A stretch of DNA of 38,479 nt from Cellulosimicrobium arenosum (lineage in GTDB: Bacteria; Actinomycetota; Actinomycetes; Actinomycetales; Cellulomonadaceae), in assembly GCF_014837295.1 (NCBI RefSeq), contig NZ_JACYHB010000016.1, positions 1 through 38,479 on the forward strand, read 5' to 3'. The notes under the pieces were generated by a model. The model did no database searches. It had not been told where the DNA came from and saw nothing but the letters and a program-made list of their open reading frames with translations. Position numbers and translations under genes: made by a program. This document shows, piece after piece, positions 11,341 through 33,875 of the stretch; position 1 is the stretch's first letter, and the number at the start of each line of letters is the position of its first letter.

Positions 11341-13041
11341 TCAGCGCGCGGCGACCAGCTCGCAGACGACTCCCGGGACGGCTGCCGCGACGTCGAGCGC
11401 CGAGATCGGGCCGCCCGGGTTCGCCCGCTCGGCGGCGAGCCCGTGCACCAGTGCGGCCGCCGCAGCGAGCTCCGCGACGCTCCCCGGCTCCGCGACCGCG
11501 CGCGCCGCGTGGCCTGCCAGGACCACACCGAGGATGCCCGTGAGCACGTCGCCGGCCCCCGCGGTCGCGAGCCACGCCGGCGCGTCCGCCTGCGCGTACA
11601 CCCGCGCCGGCCCGACGACGAGAGTCACCGACCCCTTCAGCAGCACCGTGGCACCGGTCAGCTCGTGCGCCCGCCGCGCCCACCGCAGCGGCTCGGCCTC
11701 TACGCCCGGGCGGTCGACCGCCTCGCCGCGCCCCTGCAGGAGCGTCGCGAGCTCCCCCGCGTGGGGCGTGAGGACGAACCAGGGCGGGCACCGGTCGGGC
11801 AGCAGCGAGAGCGCCCCGGCGTCGACCACCGTCGGCACCGGTCCGCCGCTCGACGTCGCGCCCCCCGGATCGCCCGCCGCGTCCGCGAGCGCCGCGCGGA
11901 TCCGAGCGTGCTGCCCACCGGGATCCGGCTCGTCGTGGCCGGCACCCCCCGCCGCCGCGGCCGGCACGCCCGACCCGAGCGCCCACGCCTGCACACGCCC
12001 CGACGCCGGCACCACCTCGGGACGTGCCGCGAGCACCGCGCGCGCGACGTCGTCGGGCCCCTGGTAGCGGACCATCCCCGGTCCGGTCCGCACCGCGGCG
12101 CTCGTGACGAGCACCGCCGCGCCGGGGAACGTCGGCGTCCCTGCGACCACCCCGAGCACGCCGCGGGTGTACTTCTGGTCCTCCGGCCCGGGCACCGTCC
12201 ACAGGCGCCCGACGTCGCGGGCCTCCAGCCGCCGCACCGCGGGTCCCGGTGGACCGGCCGGATCCGCACCGAGCGCGAGCCCGATCTCGACGACCGCCCC
12301 GTGACCGGCCGCACCGGCAGCGGGTGGCACCAGCAGACCCGGCTTGGCCGCCCCGAACGTCACGGTCCGGTCGGCGCGCAGGACCGTCCCCGGGAGCGTG
12401 CCGTCGTCGACCCCGATGCCGCTCGGGACGTCGACCGCCACCACCCACGGACGGGACCGGACGCTCCCGTCCCCGCCGCGCTCGTCCCGGTCCGTCCTCG
12501 CACCGAGGACCTCGACCAGCCGACGTACGAGCACCGCCGCCGGGCCACGCAGCGCCCCCGACGCCCCGATCCCGAGGAGCCCGTCGAGCACGACGTCCGC
12601 CCCGACCGCCCGGGACACGGCGTCCTCCACCGTCGCCGGGTCCGGGTCCCCCCACCGGGACGCGCCGCCCTCTCCCCCACTCTCCGGGACGAGCTCGACG
12701 ACCCGGCCGCCCGCCCGTCGCAGGGCCGCGAGCCCACCGCCGTGCACGTGCTCCGACGCGAGCACGGCCAGCACGCCCATCCCGCGGCGCACCAGGTGGG
12801 CACCCGCGAACAGCGTGTCGCCGCCGTTGTTGCCCGGCCCGACGAGGAGGACCGCGCGCGCGCCCGTCACGCGGCCGTCGCGCCGCCCCCCGTCCGGGCC
12901 GACGACGGACCGTCTCCGCGCGACGTCACGCGCCACGATCGTCGCGAGCGCGAACGAGGCGCGTTCCATGAGCGGGTCACCTGCGGCGAGGAGGGGATGC
13001 TCTGCAGCACGGACGTCGGCGACGGACCAGGCTTCGATCAT
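11341..13041 (-). CDS. nnr: Bifunctional NAD(P)HX epimerase / ADP-dependent NAD(P)HX dehydratase
   Basis: This enzyme repairs hydrated NADH and NADPH: the N-terminal YjeF_N domain (about 1-240) epimerises NAD(P)HX and the C-terminal ribokinase-like domain (about 265-566) dehydrates the S form using ADP. Visible motifs are LVGPGNNGGDTLFAGAHLVRRG and AVDVPSGI in the first domain, then KYTRGVLGVVAGT, VLTPHAGELATLL, TVLLKGSVTLV and the catalytic LATAGAGDVLTGILG in the second. The 566-residue length fits a full fusion with some Gly/Ala-rich linkers. The ATG at 13039-13041 follows GGATGGGGAC, a good ribosome binding site; the much longer upstream frame runs antisense through the LLM gene and is rejected. 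It is divergent from the LLM gene. Confidence 0.93.
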   Translation of the reverse strand: MIEAWSVADVRAAEHPLLAAGDPLMERASFALATIVARDVARRRSVVGPDGGRRDGRVTGARAVLLVGPGNNGGDTLFAGAHLVRRGMGVLAVLASEHVHGGGLAALRRAGGRVVELVPESGGEGGASRWGDPDPATVEDAVSRAVGADVVLDGLLGIGASGALRGPAAVLVRRLVEVLGARTDRDERGGDGSVRSRPWVVAVDVPSGIGVDDGTLPGTVLRADRTVTFGAAKPGLLVPPAAGAAGHGAVVEIGLALGADPAGPPGPAVRRLEARDVGRLWTVPGPEDQKYTRGVLGVVAGTPTFPGAAVLVTSAAVRTGPGMVRYQGPDDVARAVLAARPEVVPASGRVQAWALGSGVPAAAAGGAGHDEPDPGGQHARIRAALADAAGDPGGATSSGGPVPTVVDAGALSLLPDRCPPWFVLTPHAGELATLLQGRGEAVDRPGVEAEPLRWARRAHELTGATVLLKGSVTLVVGPARVYAQADAPAWLATAGAGDVLTGILGVVLAGHAARAVAEPGSVAELAAAAALVHGLAAERANPGGPISALDVAAAVPGVVCELVAAR

Positions 13042-13088
13042 GTCCCCATCCTGCCCACCCCGACCGCGCCCGCGCTCGCGAGAGCGCC

Positions 13089-13094
13089 TATCGT
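13089..13094 (+). promoter_or_regulatory. -10 box for leaderless LLM oxidoreductase gene
   Basis: TATCGT, 7 nt before the ATG at 13102. Confidence 0.55.
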
Positions 13095-13101
13095 GACGAG
13101 C

Positions 13102-14121
13102 ATGCGATTCGGACTGTTCATCCCGCAGGGCTGGCGGCAGGACCTCGTCGGCATCGACCCGTCCGAGCAGTGGGAGACCATGCGCTCCCTCGCTCGGCAC
13201 GCCGACACCGCGCTCGCGGGCGAAGGGCTCTCCGGGTCGGACCCGGCGTGGGAGTCGATCTGGGTCTACGACCACTTCCACACCGTCCCGGTGCCGACGG
13301 ACGAGGCGACGCACGAGGCCTGGACCCTGATGGCCGCGTTCGCGGCGTCGACCGAGCGCGTGCGGCTCGGCCAGATGTGCACCTGCATGGCGTACCGCAA
13401 CCCCGCGTACCTGGCAAAGGTCGCGGCGACGGTCGACGTCGTGAGCGGCGGGCGCGTCGAGATGGGCATCGGCGCCGGGTGGTACGAGCACGAGTGGCGC
13501 GCGTACGGGTACGGGTTCCCGAGCGCCGGGGACCGTCTCGGCGCCCTCGACGAGGGCGTGCAGATCTTCAAGCAGCTGTGGACCAACGGGATCGCGACGC
13601 TCGACGGCGAGCACTACCAGGTCGACGGCGCGCGCCTCGCGCCCCTGCCGCTGCAGGTCGACGGCCCGCCGCTGTGGGTCGCGGGCGGCGGCGAGAAGAA
13701 GACCCTGCGCATCGCTGCCGAGCACGCGCAGTACACGAACTTCGACGGGACGCCGGAGGTCTTCGCGCACAAGTCCGAGGTGCTGCGCGGGCACTGCGAC
13801 GCGATCCGTCGCCCGTTCGAGGAGATCACGCGCTCGGCGAACTTCAACGTCATCATCGGCGAGACCGCGGCGGACGTCGACGACCGTATCGCCTGGGTCG
13901 AGGAGCACTTCTCCCTGTCGGTCCCCGAGAAGGCCGCGCAAGAGGCCGAGAACCTGCGGCGTGGGCCGCTCGTCGGGACGCCCGAGCAGGTCGTCGAGAA
14001 GCTGACGGAGCTGCGCGGCCTCGGCCTGGGCTACGCGATCACGTACTTCCCCGAAGCGGCATACGACCGCAGCGGCATCGACCTCTTCGAGCGCCAGGTC
14101 ATCCCGGCCCTGGCCCCCTAG
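13102..14121 (+). CDS. LLM-class (luciferase-like) F420-dependent oxidoreductase
   Basis: A 339-residue luciferase-like TIM-barrel protein. The N-terminus MRFGLFIPQGW, the SIWVYDHFHTVPVP strand-loop, VRLGQMCTCMAYRNPAYLAKVAATVDVVSGGRVEMGIGAGWYEHEW and the late VGTPEQVVEKLTELRGLGLGYAITYF are typical of the actinobacterial F420-dependent group. The cofactor is probably F420 (FMN possible). The substrate cannot be inferred and no pathway neighbours are visible. The gene has its own TATCGT box 7 nt before the ATG. A long palindrome starts 19 nt after its stop. Confidence 0.88.
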   Translation: MRFGLFIPQGWRQDLVGIDPSEQWETMRSLARHADTALAGEGLSGSDPAWESIWVYDHFHTVPVPTDEATHEAWTLMAAFAASTERVRLGQMCTCMAYRNPAYLAKVAATVDVVSGGRVEMGIGAGWYEHEWRAYGYGFPSAGDRLGALDEGVQIFKQLWTNGIATLDGEHYQVDGARLAPLPLQVDGPPLWVAGGGEKKTLRIAAEHAQYTNFDGTPEVFAHKSEVLRGHCDAIRRPFEEITRSANFNVIIGETAADVDDRIAWVEEHFSLSVPEKAAQEAENLRRGPLVGTPEQVVEKLTELRGLGLGYAITYFPEAAYDRSGIDLFERQVIPALAP

Positions 14122-14140
14122 CTCGCCACCTCTCCTCCGT

Positions 14141-14218
14141 CGAGCATGTTCCTGTGGCCCGCGCGGGGCCACGGACGGGCAGCTGACACATGGTGGTTCG
14201 TCACCGTCCGCATGCTCG
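14141..14218. repeat. Palindromic repeat, copy 1 (long variant)
   Basis: It begins CGAGCATG and ends CATGCTCG (exact inverse). Inside, GTGGCCC and GGGCCAC form a 7-bp hairpin with a 5-nt loop, and GGACGG/CCGTCC form another pair of arms. It shares the outer 8 bp and the CTGTGGCCCG core with copies 2 and 3 but has an extra roughly 22 nt. It starts 19 nt after the LLM gene stop; a terminator role is likely. Confidence 0.75.
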
Positions 14219-14341
14219 GCGTCGCGCAGATCCGCACGGCTGCGGCGACCTGGCAGTCCACAGGACCGTCTCGTGCGAGGCCGTCCACACGTCGAGCTCG
14301 GCGTCCGGCACAGCGGGTGCAGATCCGCTGAGGTGTCGTCC

Positions 14342-15274
14342 ATGCGACGAGCTCACCTTCCCGTCAGCCTCCCCGCCGTCGGCGCGACGCAGGGTGACCT
14401 CGTCTCGATCGCCCAGTGCCGCGACCACGGCCTCACGGACAAGGACGTCGGAGGGCTCGTCCGGCGCGGTGTGCTCACGCGGGTGACGCGTGGCGTCTAC
14501 GACACGTGCCCGACGCCGGTCCCGGTCCGCCCGTGGGACGCGCGGCGTCTCCGCGCGGCGTGGGCGGGACTGCTCGCCTACGGTGAGGATGCGGTCGCCG
14601 TCGGACAGTGCGCGCTCGCGCTGCACGGGGTGCGCGGTCTGCCCGGGGCGATCCGTCCCGAAGCAGCCGTGCCGTGGGGCAGGAACCGCCGCGACCGCGA
14701 CGGGATCGCGCTCCGACAGTTCGACGCGGGGATGACGACGGCCACCGTCGGCGGCCGGCTCGTCGCTGACATCGACTGGGCGATCGCGCAGGCGGTCCCT
14801 GAGCTTCCTCGCCCGAACGGTCTTGCCGTGCTGGACTCGGCACTGCACCTCGGTCTGCTCGACCGGTCGGGTCTCGACCGGTCGCACGTGCATGCCCGAG
14901 GGAGGCGCGGCGTCGCGCTGCGCCACGCCCTGTGGACCCTGGCCGACCCCCGGTCGGAGTCCCCGCTCGAGTCGTTCGCCCGTCTCGACTGTGTCGACGA
15001 GGGCGTGCCGCCCCACACCTTGCAGCTCCCGGTCCACCTGGGACCGGACTCTCCCACGCTGCGGGCCGACATGGGGTGGCGGCGAGCCGACGGTCGGTGG
15101 CTCGTGGCCGAGCTGGACGGCATGGACGTGCACGACGCACCCGCCGCGGTCTTCGCCGATCGGCAGCGTCAGAACACGCTCGTCGCCACCGGCAGGCTGG
15201 ACGTCCTCCGCTTCACGGGTCGTGACGTCGGGACGATCGGCAGAACTGTTCGCAAGGTACTGCTCGTCACCTGA
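14342..15274 (+). CDS. AbiEi-like N-terminal domain protein with DUF559/Vsr-like nuclease-fold C-terminus
   Basis: The 310-residue protein resembles actinobacterial proteins annotated as type IV toxin-antitoxin AbiEi-family antitoxin-domain proteins. Residues 15-55 (SIAQCRDHGLTDKDVGGLVRRGVLTRVTRGVY) form the winged-helix AbiEi-type start. The middle AVGQCALALHGVRGLPGAI matches the linker region of that group. The C-terminal part resembles a DUF559/Vsr-like PD-(D/E)xK fold: E210 in SESPLESFAR, D243 in LRADMGWRR, then E257 and D259 in VAELDGMDVHD, followed by ADRQRQNTLVATGRLDVLRFTGRDV. No AbiEii-type toxin lies beside it, so a TA pair is not supported. The ATG at 14342 has GAGGTG 6 nt upstream. 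The gene is flanked by palindromes at both ends. Confidence 0.75.
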   Translation: MRRAHLPVSLPAVGATQGDLVSIAQCRDHGLTDKDVGGLVRRGVLTRVTRGVYDTCPTPVPVRPWDARRLRAAWAGLLAYGEDAVAVGQCALALHGVRGLPGAIRPEAAVPWGRNRRDRDGIALRQFDAGMTTATVGGRLVADIDWAIAQAVPELPRPNGLAVLDSALHLGLLDRSGLDRSHVHARGRRGVALRHALWTLADPRSESPLESFARLDCVDEGVPPHTLQLPVHLGPDSPTLRADMGWRRADGRWLVAELDGMDVHDAPAAVFADRQRQNTLVATGRLDVLRFTGRDVGTIGRTVRKVLLVT

Positions 15275-15293
15275 CCATGCGTCTGCTGCTTGA

Positions 15294-15349
15294 CGACCAT
15301 GTGGCTGTCGCCCGTCCGAGCGTCCGGACGAGCCACGACCACATGGTCG
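15294..15349. repeat. Palindromic repeat, copy 2
   Basis: This 56-nt element has two 28-nt arms with 6 mismatches, outer ends CGACCATGTGG and CCACATGGTCG, and an apical CGTCCG/CGGACG stem. It lies 19 nt past the stop of the plus-strand AbiEi-like gene and 20 nt from the stop of convergent acpS, the expected place of a bidirectional terminator. Confidence 0.85.
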
Positions 15350-15369
15350 GCGGGTGGTGTGTGGGGGTA

Positions 15370-15720
15370 TCAGTCTTCTGCGACGACCATGGCTGAGGCG
15401 ATGCCGGCGTCGTGCGAGATGCTCAGGTGCCAGTTCCTGATGCCCAGCTCGGCAGCGCGGGCGGCGACGGTGCCGCGGATCTCCACCTCGGGCGGTCCGC
15501 CGACGACGCGGTGCACCGTCGCGTCGTGCCACAGCATGCCGCCCGGGGCCCCCAGCGCCTTCGCGATCGCCTCCTTCGCGGCGAACCGCGCAGCGAGGGA
15601 GGCGTCCGGCAGGTCACGCTCGGCCTCGGTGAACAGCTTCTCGCGCAGCCGCGGGGTCCGTTCGAGCGTCGACATGAACCGTCCGACGTCCACGACGTCG
15701 ATCCCGACCCCGATGATCAT
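15370..15720 (-). CDS. acpS: Holo-[acyl-carrier-protein] synthase
   Basis: AcpS transfers 4'-phosphopantetheine from CoA to Ser of apo-ACP, activating fatty acid synthesis. The 116-residue length is normal. The magnesium/CoA-binding motifs [14 protein letters not shown] (Asp8) and [16 protein letters not shown] (43-58, with Glu50) are both present, as is the C-terminal [17 protein letters not shown] strand. The ATG is at 15718-15720. It is convergent to the AbiEi-like gene and lies downstream of glmS, separated from it by palindrome copy 3. coaA, an early CoA-pathway gene, is nearby on the other strand. Confidence 0.96.
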
Positions 15721-15770
15721 GCGGCCACCCTACGTCCCTCCCCGCCAACGAGAATGCCCTCCCTACCTGT

Positions 15771-15826
15771 CGAGCATGTGGCTGTGGCCCGTCCTGACGT
15801 CAGGACGGGCCACAGGCACATGCTCG
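15771..15826. repeat. Palindromic repeat, copy 3 (near-perfect)
   Basis: A 56-nt element with two 28-nt arms (15771-15798 and 15799-15826) that are inverse complements except at one position and meet with no spacer at GAC/GTC. Outer ends are CGAGCATGTG and CACATGCTCG. It starts 8 nt past the glmS stop and precedes acpS by 50 nt; it probably terminates glmS transcription. The DNA could also extrude as a cruciform. Confidence 0.9.
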
Positions 15827-15834
15827 GCGGGGGG

Positions 15835-17712
15835 CTATTCCACCGTGACCGATTTGGCCAGGTTGCGGGGTTGGTCTACGTCCAGGCCCTTCGCCGTCGC
15901 CAGCGCCATGGCGAAGATCTGGAGCGGGACGACCGCCAGCAGCGGGCTCAGGAGCGTCGGGGACCGTGGGATCCAGAAGATCTCGTCCGCGTACGGAAGC
16001 ACCGCGTCGTCGCCGTCCTCCGCGATGACCAGCGTCCGCGCACCACGCGCCCGGATCTCCTGGATGTTGGAGATGACCTTCGAGTGCAGGCCCTCGCGAC
16101 CGTGCGGGGACGGCACGATGACGAACACCGGCTGGCCGTCGTCGATCAGCGCGATCGGGCCGTGCTTGAGCTCACCCGCGGCGAACCCCTCGGCGTGGAT
16201 GTACGCGAGCTCCTTGAGCTTGAGCGCCCCCTCCAGCGCGACGGGGAACCCGACGTGGCGGCCCAGGAACAGCACCGACGCGGTGTCCTTCATCGACCGG
16301 GCCGTCGCGCGCACGTACTCGCCGCGCTCGATGACCGTCTGGATCTTCGCCGGCATCGCCCGCAGGTCCTCGAGGATCGCCGCGATCTCGTCGGGGAACT
16401 TGTTCCCGCGCAGCTGCGCGAGGTACAGCCCCAGGAGGTAGGCGGCGGTGATCTGCGACAGGAACGCCTTGGTGGACGCGACCGCGACCTCCGGGCCGGC
16501 GTGCGTGTAGAGCACCGCGTCCGACTCGCGCGGGATCGTCGAGCCGTGCGTGTTGACGATCGAGATGACCTTCGCACCCTGCTCGCGCGCGTGGCGCACG
16601 GCCATGAGCGTGTCCATCGTCTCGCCGGACTGCGTCACGGCCACGACGAGCGTGCGCTCGTCCACGATGGGGTCGCGGTAGCGGAACTCGTGCGCGAGCT
16701 CCACCTCGACGGGGATGCGGCACCAGTGCTCGATCGCGTACTTGGCGACGTGACCGGAGTACGCGGCGGTCCCGCACGCCACCACGATGATCTTGTCGAC
16801 CGAGCGCAGGACGGCCTCGTCGATGCGCAGGTCGTCGAGCACGAGCTTGCCCGAGGTGTCGGTACGGCCGAGCAGCGTGTCCCCGACAGCGTGCGGCTGG
16901 TCGTGGATCTCCTTGTCCATGAAGGAGTCGAAGCCGCCCTTCTCGGCGGCCGCGGCGTCCCAGTCCACGGTGTACCGCTTCGCCTCGGCCGGGTTCCCGT
17001 CGAAGTCCGTCACCTCGACCGCCGTCGGCGTGATCGTGACGATCTGGTCCTGGCCGAGCTCGAGCGCCTCGTGCGTGTGGGAGATGAACGCGGCGACGTC
17101 CGAACCGAGGAAGTTCTCGCCCTCCCCGAGCCCGACGACGAGGGGCGAGTCGTGCCGCGCGCCCACCACCGTGTCGGGCGCGTCGGCGTGGACGGCGAGG
17201 AGCGTGAAGGTGCCCTCGAGCCGCCGGGCCACCTGGCCCATGGCGAGCGTGAGGTCGTGGGTGTCCCGGTAGGCGCGCGCCAGGAGCTGCGCGGCGACCT
17301 CGGTGTCCGTCTCCGACAGGAACTCGACGCCGTCGGAGAGCAGCTCGGCCTTGAGCACGGCGAAGTTCTCGACGATCCCGTTGTGGATGACCGCCAGCCG
17401 GTCGGAGTCCGCGAGATGGGGGTGCGCGTTGGTGTCCGTCGGTCCCCCGTGGGTCGCCCAGCGCGTGTGCCCGATCGACGCCGTCGCGACGGGGAGCGGG
17501 TGCAGCTCGATCTCCTCGACCAGGTTGGCGAGCTTGCCCGACTTCTTGGCGAACGCGACCGCGTCGATCTGCGGCCCGACGAGCGCGACCCCCGCCGAGT
17601 CGTAGCCGCGGTACTCGAGCCGGCCGAGTCCTTCGAGAGCGACGTCGAGGGGTCGCCCCGACGCCTCGCCCACCATGGTTCCAGGGCCCACGTAGCCCAC
17701 GATTCCGCACAT
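15835..17712 (-). CDS. glmS: Glutamine-fructose-6-phosphate aminotransferase (isomerising)
   Basis: GlmS makes glucosamine-6-phosphate from fructose-6-phosphate and glutamine, the entry to UDP-GlcNAc for peptidoglycan. The N-terminal glutaminase has the nucleophile Cys2 (MCGIVGYVG), [33 protein letters not shown] and HNGIVENF. Two SIS domains carry [20 protein letters not shown] and [16 protein letters not shown], and the C-terminus KSVTVE is the conserved loop end. The 625-residue length is normal. The ATG at 17710-17712 has a TACACT box 8 nt upstream and no strong Shine-Dalgarno. No glmS ribozyme is expected in this phylum and the leader is too short to hold one. GlmM, the next enzyme, is encoded about 3 kb away. 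Confidence 0.97.
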
Positions 17713-27173: not shown

Positions 27174-27209
27174 CGACGGGCCCGGAACCGCGAGGTTCCG
27201 GGCCCGTCG
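27174..27209. terminator. Terminator of the alpha ribosomal cluster (after rplQ)
   Basis: A perfect 16-bp stem, CGACGGGCCCGGAACC (27174-27189) with its inverse complement (27194-27209) and the loop GCGA, 15 nt past the rplQ stop. Confidence 0.9.
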
Positions 27210-33839: not shown

Positions 33840-33875
33840 CGACAGGGCCGACGGCGTGCGCCGTCGGCCCTGTCG
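33840..33875. terminator. Terminator after rplO
   Basis: A perfect 16-bp stem, CGACAGGGCCGACGGC (33840-33855) with its inverse complement (33860-33875) and the loop GTGC, 5 nt past the rplO stop. Confidence 0.9.

Follow-up and report, generated by a model that had tools for sequence, protein, structure and literature searches.

Positions 1 to 38,479 of contig NZ_JACYHB010000016.1 from Cellulosimicrobium arenosum (assembly GCF_014837295.1), hereafter the window, contain three long palindromes within 1.7 kb, and the first two of these enclose an open reading frame for a nuclease-like protein, here called ABI (Table 1). Copy 1 follows a gene for an F420-dependent LLM class oxidoreductase, and copies 2 and 3 follow two genes that we take to be acpS and glmS, the latter from its domains. 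Hairpins of the same anatomy are dispersed through related genomes and bracket orthologs of ABI at several chromosomal places. The bracketed gene and its hairpins suggest an undescribed kind of small actinobacterial mobile element, in which the palindromes are probably, as we hold with modest confidence, copies of a small mobile DNA hairpin with ABI as its most likely partner.

That the palindromes are real, belong to one family and measure exactly 56 nt in copies 2 and 3 had been stated in the initial annotation, and a direct check agreed with it. Copy 3 indeed has loop-free arms of 28 nt with a single mismatch, and a palindrome scan ranked it first in the 38-kb window with a score of 25, compared to 17 for the runner-up, an ordinary hairpin. 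Copy 1, by contrast, is not the single palindrome of 78 nt that it had been taken for, but a decayed 56-nt hairpin with a further half-site 22 nt away (56+22); this third half-site had been overlooked, as had the nuclease-like gene that copies 1 and 2 enclose. The motif CATGTGGCTGTGGCCCG (up to 3 mismatches) matches the window five times, always within the three copies (0.22 expected; maximum of 2 in 100 shuffles). Covariance model R1, trained on 24 oriented copies from relatives including copies 2 and 3, scored these two in register at 77.3 and 83.5 bits and copy 1, which was outside the training set, at 36.0 bits; it found no further convincing site in the window, the next-best reaching 26.1 bits. 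A scan of window positions 13000-17000 with Rfam 15 gave no RNA family at gathering score, two miRNA models staying far under their cut-off. Ordinary strong hairpins with stems of 17 and 16 bp lie at window positions 33840-33875 and 27174-27209; their sequences are unrelated and they fit standard terminators.

Table 1. Palindromes, half-sites and genes at the locus (positions in the window)
Feature	Position	Strand	Remarks
F420-dependent LLM class oxidoreductase	13102..14121	+	neighbour
Copy 1	14141..14196	+	decayed 56-nt hairpin, 64% paired, right end CATGGTGG; 19 nt past LLM oxidoreductase stop
Third half-site of copy 1, CATGCTCG	14211..14218	+	exactly 22 nt from right half-site of hairpin; faces nuclease-like gene
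Nuclease-like ABI, 310 aa	14342..15274	+	AbiEi_4 winged-helix N-terminus; PD-(D/E)XK-like (DUF559/MTES_1575-type) C-terminus
Third half-site of copy 2, TGACCATG	15272..15279	-	its TGA serves as stop of the nuclease-like gene; faces that gene
Copy 2	15294..15349	-	56-nt hairpin; 20 nt past acpS stop
acpS (presumed name)	15370..15720	-	neighbour; ACPS domain
Third half-site of copy 3, CGAGAATG	15749..15756	-	degenerate
Copy 3	15771..15826	-	56-nt hairpin, 27/28 pairs; 8 nt past glmS stop
glmS (presumed name)	15835..17712	-	neighbour; SIS and glutamine amidotransferase domains

Anatomy, covariation and dispersal of the hairpin

The repeated unit consists of a 56-nt hairpin, CGANCATG-N40-CATGNTCG, and a third half-site located 22 nt outward from one of its ends; across the family the hairpin measures 55-57 nt, its arms 28-30 nt and the distance to the third half-site 21-22 nt. 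Anatomy and placement were analysed with 154 distinct CATG-type copies, after removal of those with less than 55% pairing or less than 150 nt from the end of a locus. Over their 308 flanks, offsets of 21 or 22 carried a third half-site in 90 cases, compared to an average of about 0.9 for each remaining offset, and the oriented logo of 84 copies reads GC-CGANCATG...CATGNTCG-GC, followed by about 12 nt and another CATGNTCG. Beyond CATG, half-sites of the subtypes CACG/CGTG and CAGG/CCTG occur; of 146 third half-sites found at offsets of 21-22, 138 belonged to the same subtype as their hairpin (CATG, CCTG or CGTG), and 83 hairpins lacked one. A spacer before the third half-site that resembles a Shine-Dalgarno sequence was judged to be a degenerate arm copy. 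One locus of the Oerskovia group (L066:1501-1600, G085) has two extra 22-nt tandem units TGGGACGACAACCGCATGNTCG after the right half-site, as if the arm could be added repeatedly.

The inner arms vary by genus and by copy, yet remain largely complementary. In alignment A1, 88.1% of the cells were paired and 67 were changed on both sides, compared to 23.5 after shuffling (none of 500 shuffles reached 67) and 14-21 after sliding. Similarly, 85 intergenic 56-nt copies showed 226 doubly changed cells against 72 with their halves shuffled (maximum 94); for 23 intragenic copies the value of 33 (shuffled 21, maximum 34) lies inside the shuffled range.

As to the kind of repeat, a dispersed REP/MITE-like family (repetitive extragenic palindromes, REP; miniature inverted-repeat transposable elements, MITE) or a standardised terminator had been proposed initially, and the first of these descriptions is borne out by the distribution of the copies and by a presence/absence site described below. 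Exact matches to the pattern CGANCATG-N(39-41)-CATGNTCG number 13 in the C. arenosum genome, where its reversed control has none (0-1 per genome overall). The pattern is present in 57 of 149 genomes, C. arenosum included, with up to 51 matches in one relative, single exact matches in distant genomes being at chance level, and the covariance model found copies in 17 of 17 genomes of the genus (17 to 142 each, with both strands counted and up to 150 candidates scored per genome). Among 396 genomes sampled from the phylum, one had the three-site pattern, namely C. arenosum with nine occurrences, whose family had no other genome in that sample. A scan of named genomes returned 111 stretches, all from Cellulosimicrobium, Isoptericola and Oerskovia except five in four other organisms (Parabacteroides, a metagenome-assembled genome, Paenibacillus and Actinomadura), which were rejected as tandem repeats or unpaired. 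Two loci of Parabacteroides sp. PFB2-10 (L373, L378) carry 22-nt tandem repeats with CGANCATG/CATGNTCG words, apparently unrelated.

A phage or plasmid origin was rejected after nucleotide and protein searches of plasmid, phage and viral collections had given no supporting match. In the plasmid collection neither blastn of positions 14141-15835 nor tblastn of the ABI protein (1e-5) returned a match, the Isoptericola ortholog of ABI had no phage match, and no relative was detected in viral contigs. The pattern matched 103 viral stretches, which were not accepted as family copies; of the 80 checked for pairing one reached 0.75, taken as chance.

Placement of the copies and occupied and empty sites

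Based on gene calls from a home-made hexamer model, 62 of the 154 copies lie in tandem gaps, 48 in convergent and 17 in divergent ones, and 27 overlap a called gene, intergenic copies (127/154) being defined by the absence of an overlap of at least 30 nt. When the copies were tabulated relative to stop codons, as had been suggested initially, a gene was found to read toward 110 of the 127 intergenic copies, and 79% of those lie no more than 30 nt past its stop, compared to 22% of random intergenic positions. Convergent gaps hold 38% of the intergenic copies (48/127) in about 12% of the intergenic length, and the median arm pairing is 0.86 outside genes and 0.71 inside. These figures are in line with bidirectional terminators or 3'-end hairpins, kept by the host because they end or protect transcripts, the nuclease-like gene being an insulated passenger. 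We nevertheless consider this explanation unlikely, and the idea of a standardised terminator is not supported, since the flanks show no T-run and copies occur within open frames. On the transcribed strand in tandem contexts the mismatches are 36 G.U and 39 A.C, i.e. without G.U excess and thus without a sign of selection for an RNA hairpin; once the copies are oriented by their third half-site, a weak G.U excess appears (72 versus 51 A.C, p=0.07). Moreover, terminators would leave unexplained why third half-sites point inward at the nuclease-like gene and why other DUF559-type genes have hairpins of their own, as described below, and four relatives manage hairpin-free at a site that others have filled.

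Random scatter in coding sequence, which would have spoken against a distinct family, was not seen, as 24 of the 25 fully intragenic copies share one reading frame, a result that is also difficult to reconcile with terminators. The lone off-frame copy is located at codon 1 of its gene, perhaps due to a wrong start call. The hosts belong to about eight gene families (S9 peptidase, error-prone DNA polymerase, TatD, leucyl-tRNA synthetase, biotin carboxylase, TilS-like and others), some of which are counted with several orthologs at the same site, and in the CoA-transferase and TIM-barrel genes, perhaps also in leucyl-tRNA synthetase, the true start may follow the hairpin. The shared frame has the fewest stops (24 in 254 readings versus 46 and 64) and hardly any Cys or Trp, so that tolerance can account for the preference. 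In the S9 peptidase the linker is short in G013 and G018; at this site (L127-L129, 1815-1870) G012, G002 and G010 hold a CACG-type hairpin and G000, G004 and G009 a CATG-type one.

Empty and occupied states of one site could be compared at a convergent gene pair, one member of which is presumably mfd. The stops are 4-7 nt apart and hairpin-free in G004, G006, G007 and G011, whereas the same interval is occupied by a CATG-type hairpin in G008 and G009 and by a CAGG-type hairpin with a third half-site at 22 nt in G005. The site was aligned in eight genomes, of which G012 has another sequence; G000, G002, G003 and G010 are not alignable across it. Behind glmS, G000, G004 and G009 have hairpins of the CATG type and eight species have hairpins of the CAGG type, the ends of which are altered in G006; at the same place C. 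marinum (L089, G015) has a different, very long GC-rich inverted repeat.

Such short, palindromic and dispersed copies, present or absent among species, could also form a MITE family that is moved by an unrecognised transposase encoded at another place in the genome, in which case the nuclease-like gene would be a hitchhiker, and the persistence of copies in genomes without ABI at its locus between the LLM oxidoreductase gene and acpS (LLM-acpS) agrees with this. We regard it as quite unlikely, because a target-site duplication signal was not detected (nine lengths by 625 boundary pairs; best z of 2.8 for 84 copies and 3.5 for 154, among 5625 tests each), although old copies could hide one, and because in other genera hairpins of unrelated sequence bracket members of this gene family, which would not be expected for a hitchhiker. 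No transposase beside copies was recognised by eye among the called genes at nine loci, without a systematic search.

The nuclease-like gene and its flanking repeats

For ABI the ATG at 14342 was chosen as start, the frame being open from 14273. Its N-terminus matches AbiEi_4 with 26.6 bits (cut-off 25), and its C-terminus gave a weak match to REase_MTES_1575 (E 0.22, improving to 0.0009 for the ortholog of Isoptericola BMS4). Within the E...D...ExD arrangement, E210, D243 and D259 are invariant in 11 divergent proteins and E257 is nearly so; the AbiEi-type N-terminus together with these PD-(D/E)XK residues fits the DUF559/AbiEi nuclease family. The AlphaFold model of ABI has a mean pLDDT (predicted local distance difference test) of 78.5, and a profile search of the sequences of solved structures returned nothing convincing.

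Orthologs were found in eight further genomes: G002, G004, G009, G010, G015, G036 (I. halotolerans), G084 (Isoptericola sp. BMS4) and Oerskovia turbata. Across the nine genomes the gene is bracketed by hairpins of the family at three chromosomal places, namely LLM-acpS and positions beside two genes that we take to be mshA-like and a transporter permease gene. Wherever a hairpin and its third half-site are recognisable, the latter faces the gene (12 of 12 flanks): on both sides in G000, G015, G036, G084 and O. turbata, and on one side in G004 and G009, G009 having lost the 5' end of the gene. On the second flank of G004 the outer half-site and the third site have retained their spacing and direction; in G002 and G010 a hairpin follows the ABI stop and a third site is not recognisable. 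The locus LLM-acpS was read in 21 genomes, seven of which carry ABI; in the other 14 the two neighbours adjoin directly. In two of these 14, G038 (L196:9344-9398) and G057 (L197:10929-10983), a solo CACG-type hairpin without ABI gene lies between LLM and acpS. Comparison of strands at LLM-acpS shows that the gene has been inverted between its own flanking repeats, as G000, G015 and G036 have it on the LLM strand and G002, G004, G009 and G010 on the opposite one. In G009 (L185:10700-17900) the ABI gene and its LLM neighbour are about 6 kb away from acpS, reflecting a rearrangement with a hairpin at its edge.

An AbiEi antitoxin binds to inverted repeats in front of its own gene, and the three half-sites of a copy have a common subtype. 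The half-sites might be operators through which an AbiEi-like regulator controls its own gene, the scattered copies being a regulon or decoys. This appears highly improbable to us, as the copies are found past stop codons instead of at promoters, the non-conserved arms covary, and conserved E...D...ExD residues point to a nuclease. Readings of the palindromes along the lines of protelomerase, attC or iteron systems were considered as well and not adopted.

Most distant relatives of ABI are likewise bracketed, mainly by hairpins unrelated to the window family. The relative L441:6623-7573 from I. halotolerans (36% identity over 148 aa) has a perfect 66-nt palindrome on one flank and a 44-nt palindrome on the other, with a common core and an extra arm copy beside the 44-nt one; no further copies of this palindrome were present among the loci examined. 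Eight more distinct genes came from tblastn of the L441 protein plus one Tsukamurella homolog in the plasmid collection. These relatives span Isoptericola, Tsukamurella, Arthrobacter and Nonomuraea, and in eight of the nine the two flanks carry matching repeats specific to the gene, hairpins for the most part: palindromes of 64-65 nt in L550, hairpins of 60 nt in L547, a 28-nt inverted match within hairpins in L548, a 22-nt perfect inverted repeat in L551, and hairpins in L552 and L553, the last with additional direct arm copies and one hairpin beginning at the stop codon. DUF559 was above its own cut-off in L547, L550 and L551 and was not reported for the window protein.

In a uniform test, which compared the two flanks of 250 nt with each other and required a match at E 1e-4, the eight distant relatives entered were all positive (8/9 with the Nonomuraea gene as a negative), compared to 2 of 113 non-ABI genes, mostly from Cellulosimicrobium, and 0 of 10 neighbour genes, the only such controls from the Tsukamurella and Arthrobacter records. 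Against the 113 controls this corresponds to p=4e-10, or 2e-8 without L549. Five of six repeats tested recur elsewhere in their own organism, although a palindrome may score twice, once per strand, in these counts: 20 places in 8 records for L550, 11 in 9 for L547, at least 40 in 2 for L548, 10 in 2 for L552 and 5 in 3 for L551.

Proposed mode of movement and comparison with known systems

If ABI is indeed the partner of the hairpins, its AbiEi-like winged helix would recognise the half-sites and its PD-(D/E)XK nuclease would cut at the hairpin base or at an extruded cruciform, whereupon the hairpin alone, or the gene between two inverted hairpins, might be copied or moved to new sites. Joining would be performed by host repair, and hence no target duplication would arise. 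Copies would then persist where they are least harmful: in the gap that follows a stop codon, ahead of the next gene, or within protein linkers, read in a single soluble frame. Whether this applies more widely seems to us evenly balanced: the AbiEi-DUF559 proteins of Actinomycetota may serve as enzymes for hairpin mobile elements that form a class of their own, each gene bracketed by its own inverted hairpins and seeding solo copies by means of a PD-(D/E)XK nuclease and host repair, with no known transposase.

Several observations weigh against a mobile hairpin served by ABI. Movement is deduced and none has been observed. The putative nuclease domain of the window protein stays under the Pfam cut-off, and the domain search of ABI reported no strand-transfer domain. 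ABI orthologs passed the uniform flank test in only 4 of 9 cases, because their paired hairpins have diverged. Among the distant relatives, L549 from Tsukamurella is flanked by 107-nt direct repeats (1124-1230 and 2404-2510, 86% identical) without hairpins, the Nonomuraea gene, whose ends are unsettled, has no flanking repeat, and the L553 repeat was found at 3 places in 1 record, taken as the flanks of its own gene. In 16 Cellulosimicrobium genomes the exact copies, which number 13, 7, 24, 51, 11 and 7 with ABI and 0, 2, 1, 2, 7, 0, 0, 0, 0 and 1 without (p=0.0016), speak for the partnership, but the link weakens with the model counts, which are 38, 121, 81, 142, 120 and 60 with and 17, 87, 38, 69, 85, 53, 24, 17, 26 and 62 without (p=0.051), both p values ignoring phylogeny and scoring ABI at LLM-acpS only; genomes without ABI there keep many copies, e.g. 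G005 with its 87 model matches. Finally, the search that found the Y1 transposase PF01797, the enzyme of the REP-associated tyrosine transposases (RAYT), in 0 of 57 same-family genomes covered C. arenosum and the high-copy G009, G004, G025, G036 and G038 but left out the high-copy G072 and G084 as well as G085, G065 and G089. Overall 2 of 91 genomes, both of other families, had PF01797, and controls were positive in 5 of 14.

Should the link hold, it would provide a function for a gene family annotated just as DUF559 or AbiEi antitoxin domain, and a class of mobile elements whose enzyme has no DDE, HUH, serine or tyrosine recombinase signature. One protein and one hairpin, with several matched pairs per organism in Tsukamurella and Arthrobacter, would also make a testable partner system. 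The family also adds an actinobacterial case of palindromes in frame within ordinary proteins.

The literature available in open access contained, among the matches listed, no description of these repeats or of a link between DUF559 and hairpins. With intrinsic terminators the family has in common that hairpins follow soon after stop codons, but it differs by its near-fixed length of 55-57 nt, conserved basal half-sites, the third half-site, in-frame intragenic copies and the missing T-run. Like MITEs the copies are small, non-autonomous and built as inverted repeats; unlike them they show no target-site duplication signal, and a parent transposon encoding a known transposase was not seen. The base of REP hairpins carries the conserved tetranucleotide GTAG/GGAG, whereas that of the window family is (GC)CGANCATG.

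Palindromic repeats that also occur in frame within ordinary protein genes, where they encode a common peptide, are described in a review for the Rickettsia palindromic elements (PMC10969869). The in-frame copies in unrelated protein genes (24/25, about eight families) resemble these; compared by size and description rather than by sequence, the window family is shorter (56-78 nt versus about 150), is mostly located just past stop codons and has a candidate partner gene.

As a whole the system resembles REPINs and RAYTs. REPs occur in the DNA flanking each RAYT, with many solo hairpins and several classes per genome (PMC3116915). The window family shares short hairpins in many, mostly extragenic copies (here 127/154 intergenic) and a distinct hairpin class beside each partner gene, which here is of the AbiEi/DUF559 type. 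In contrast, it has an extra half-site at 21-22 nt and its partner gene inside an inverted hairpin pair, and this partner is of the AbiEi/PD-(D/E)XK type, with no Y1_Tnp in the 57 family genomes. A REP family with a RAYT was ruled out on this ground, and as the defining Y1 enzyme is missing, the family is not assigned to REPIN/RAYT. Our best reading is that the element would work like REPIN/RAYT but be served by the unrelated nuclease family DUF559/AbiEi; if so, a REPIN-RAYT lifestyle evolved a second time, independently and with a different nuclease.

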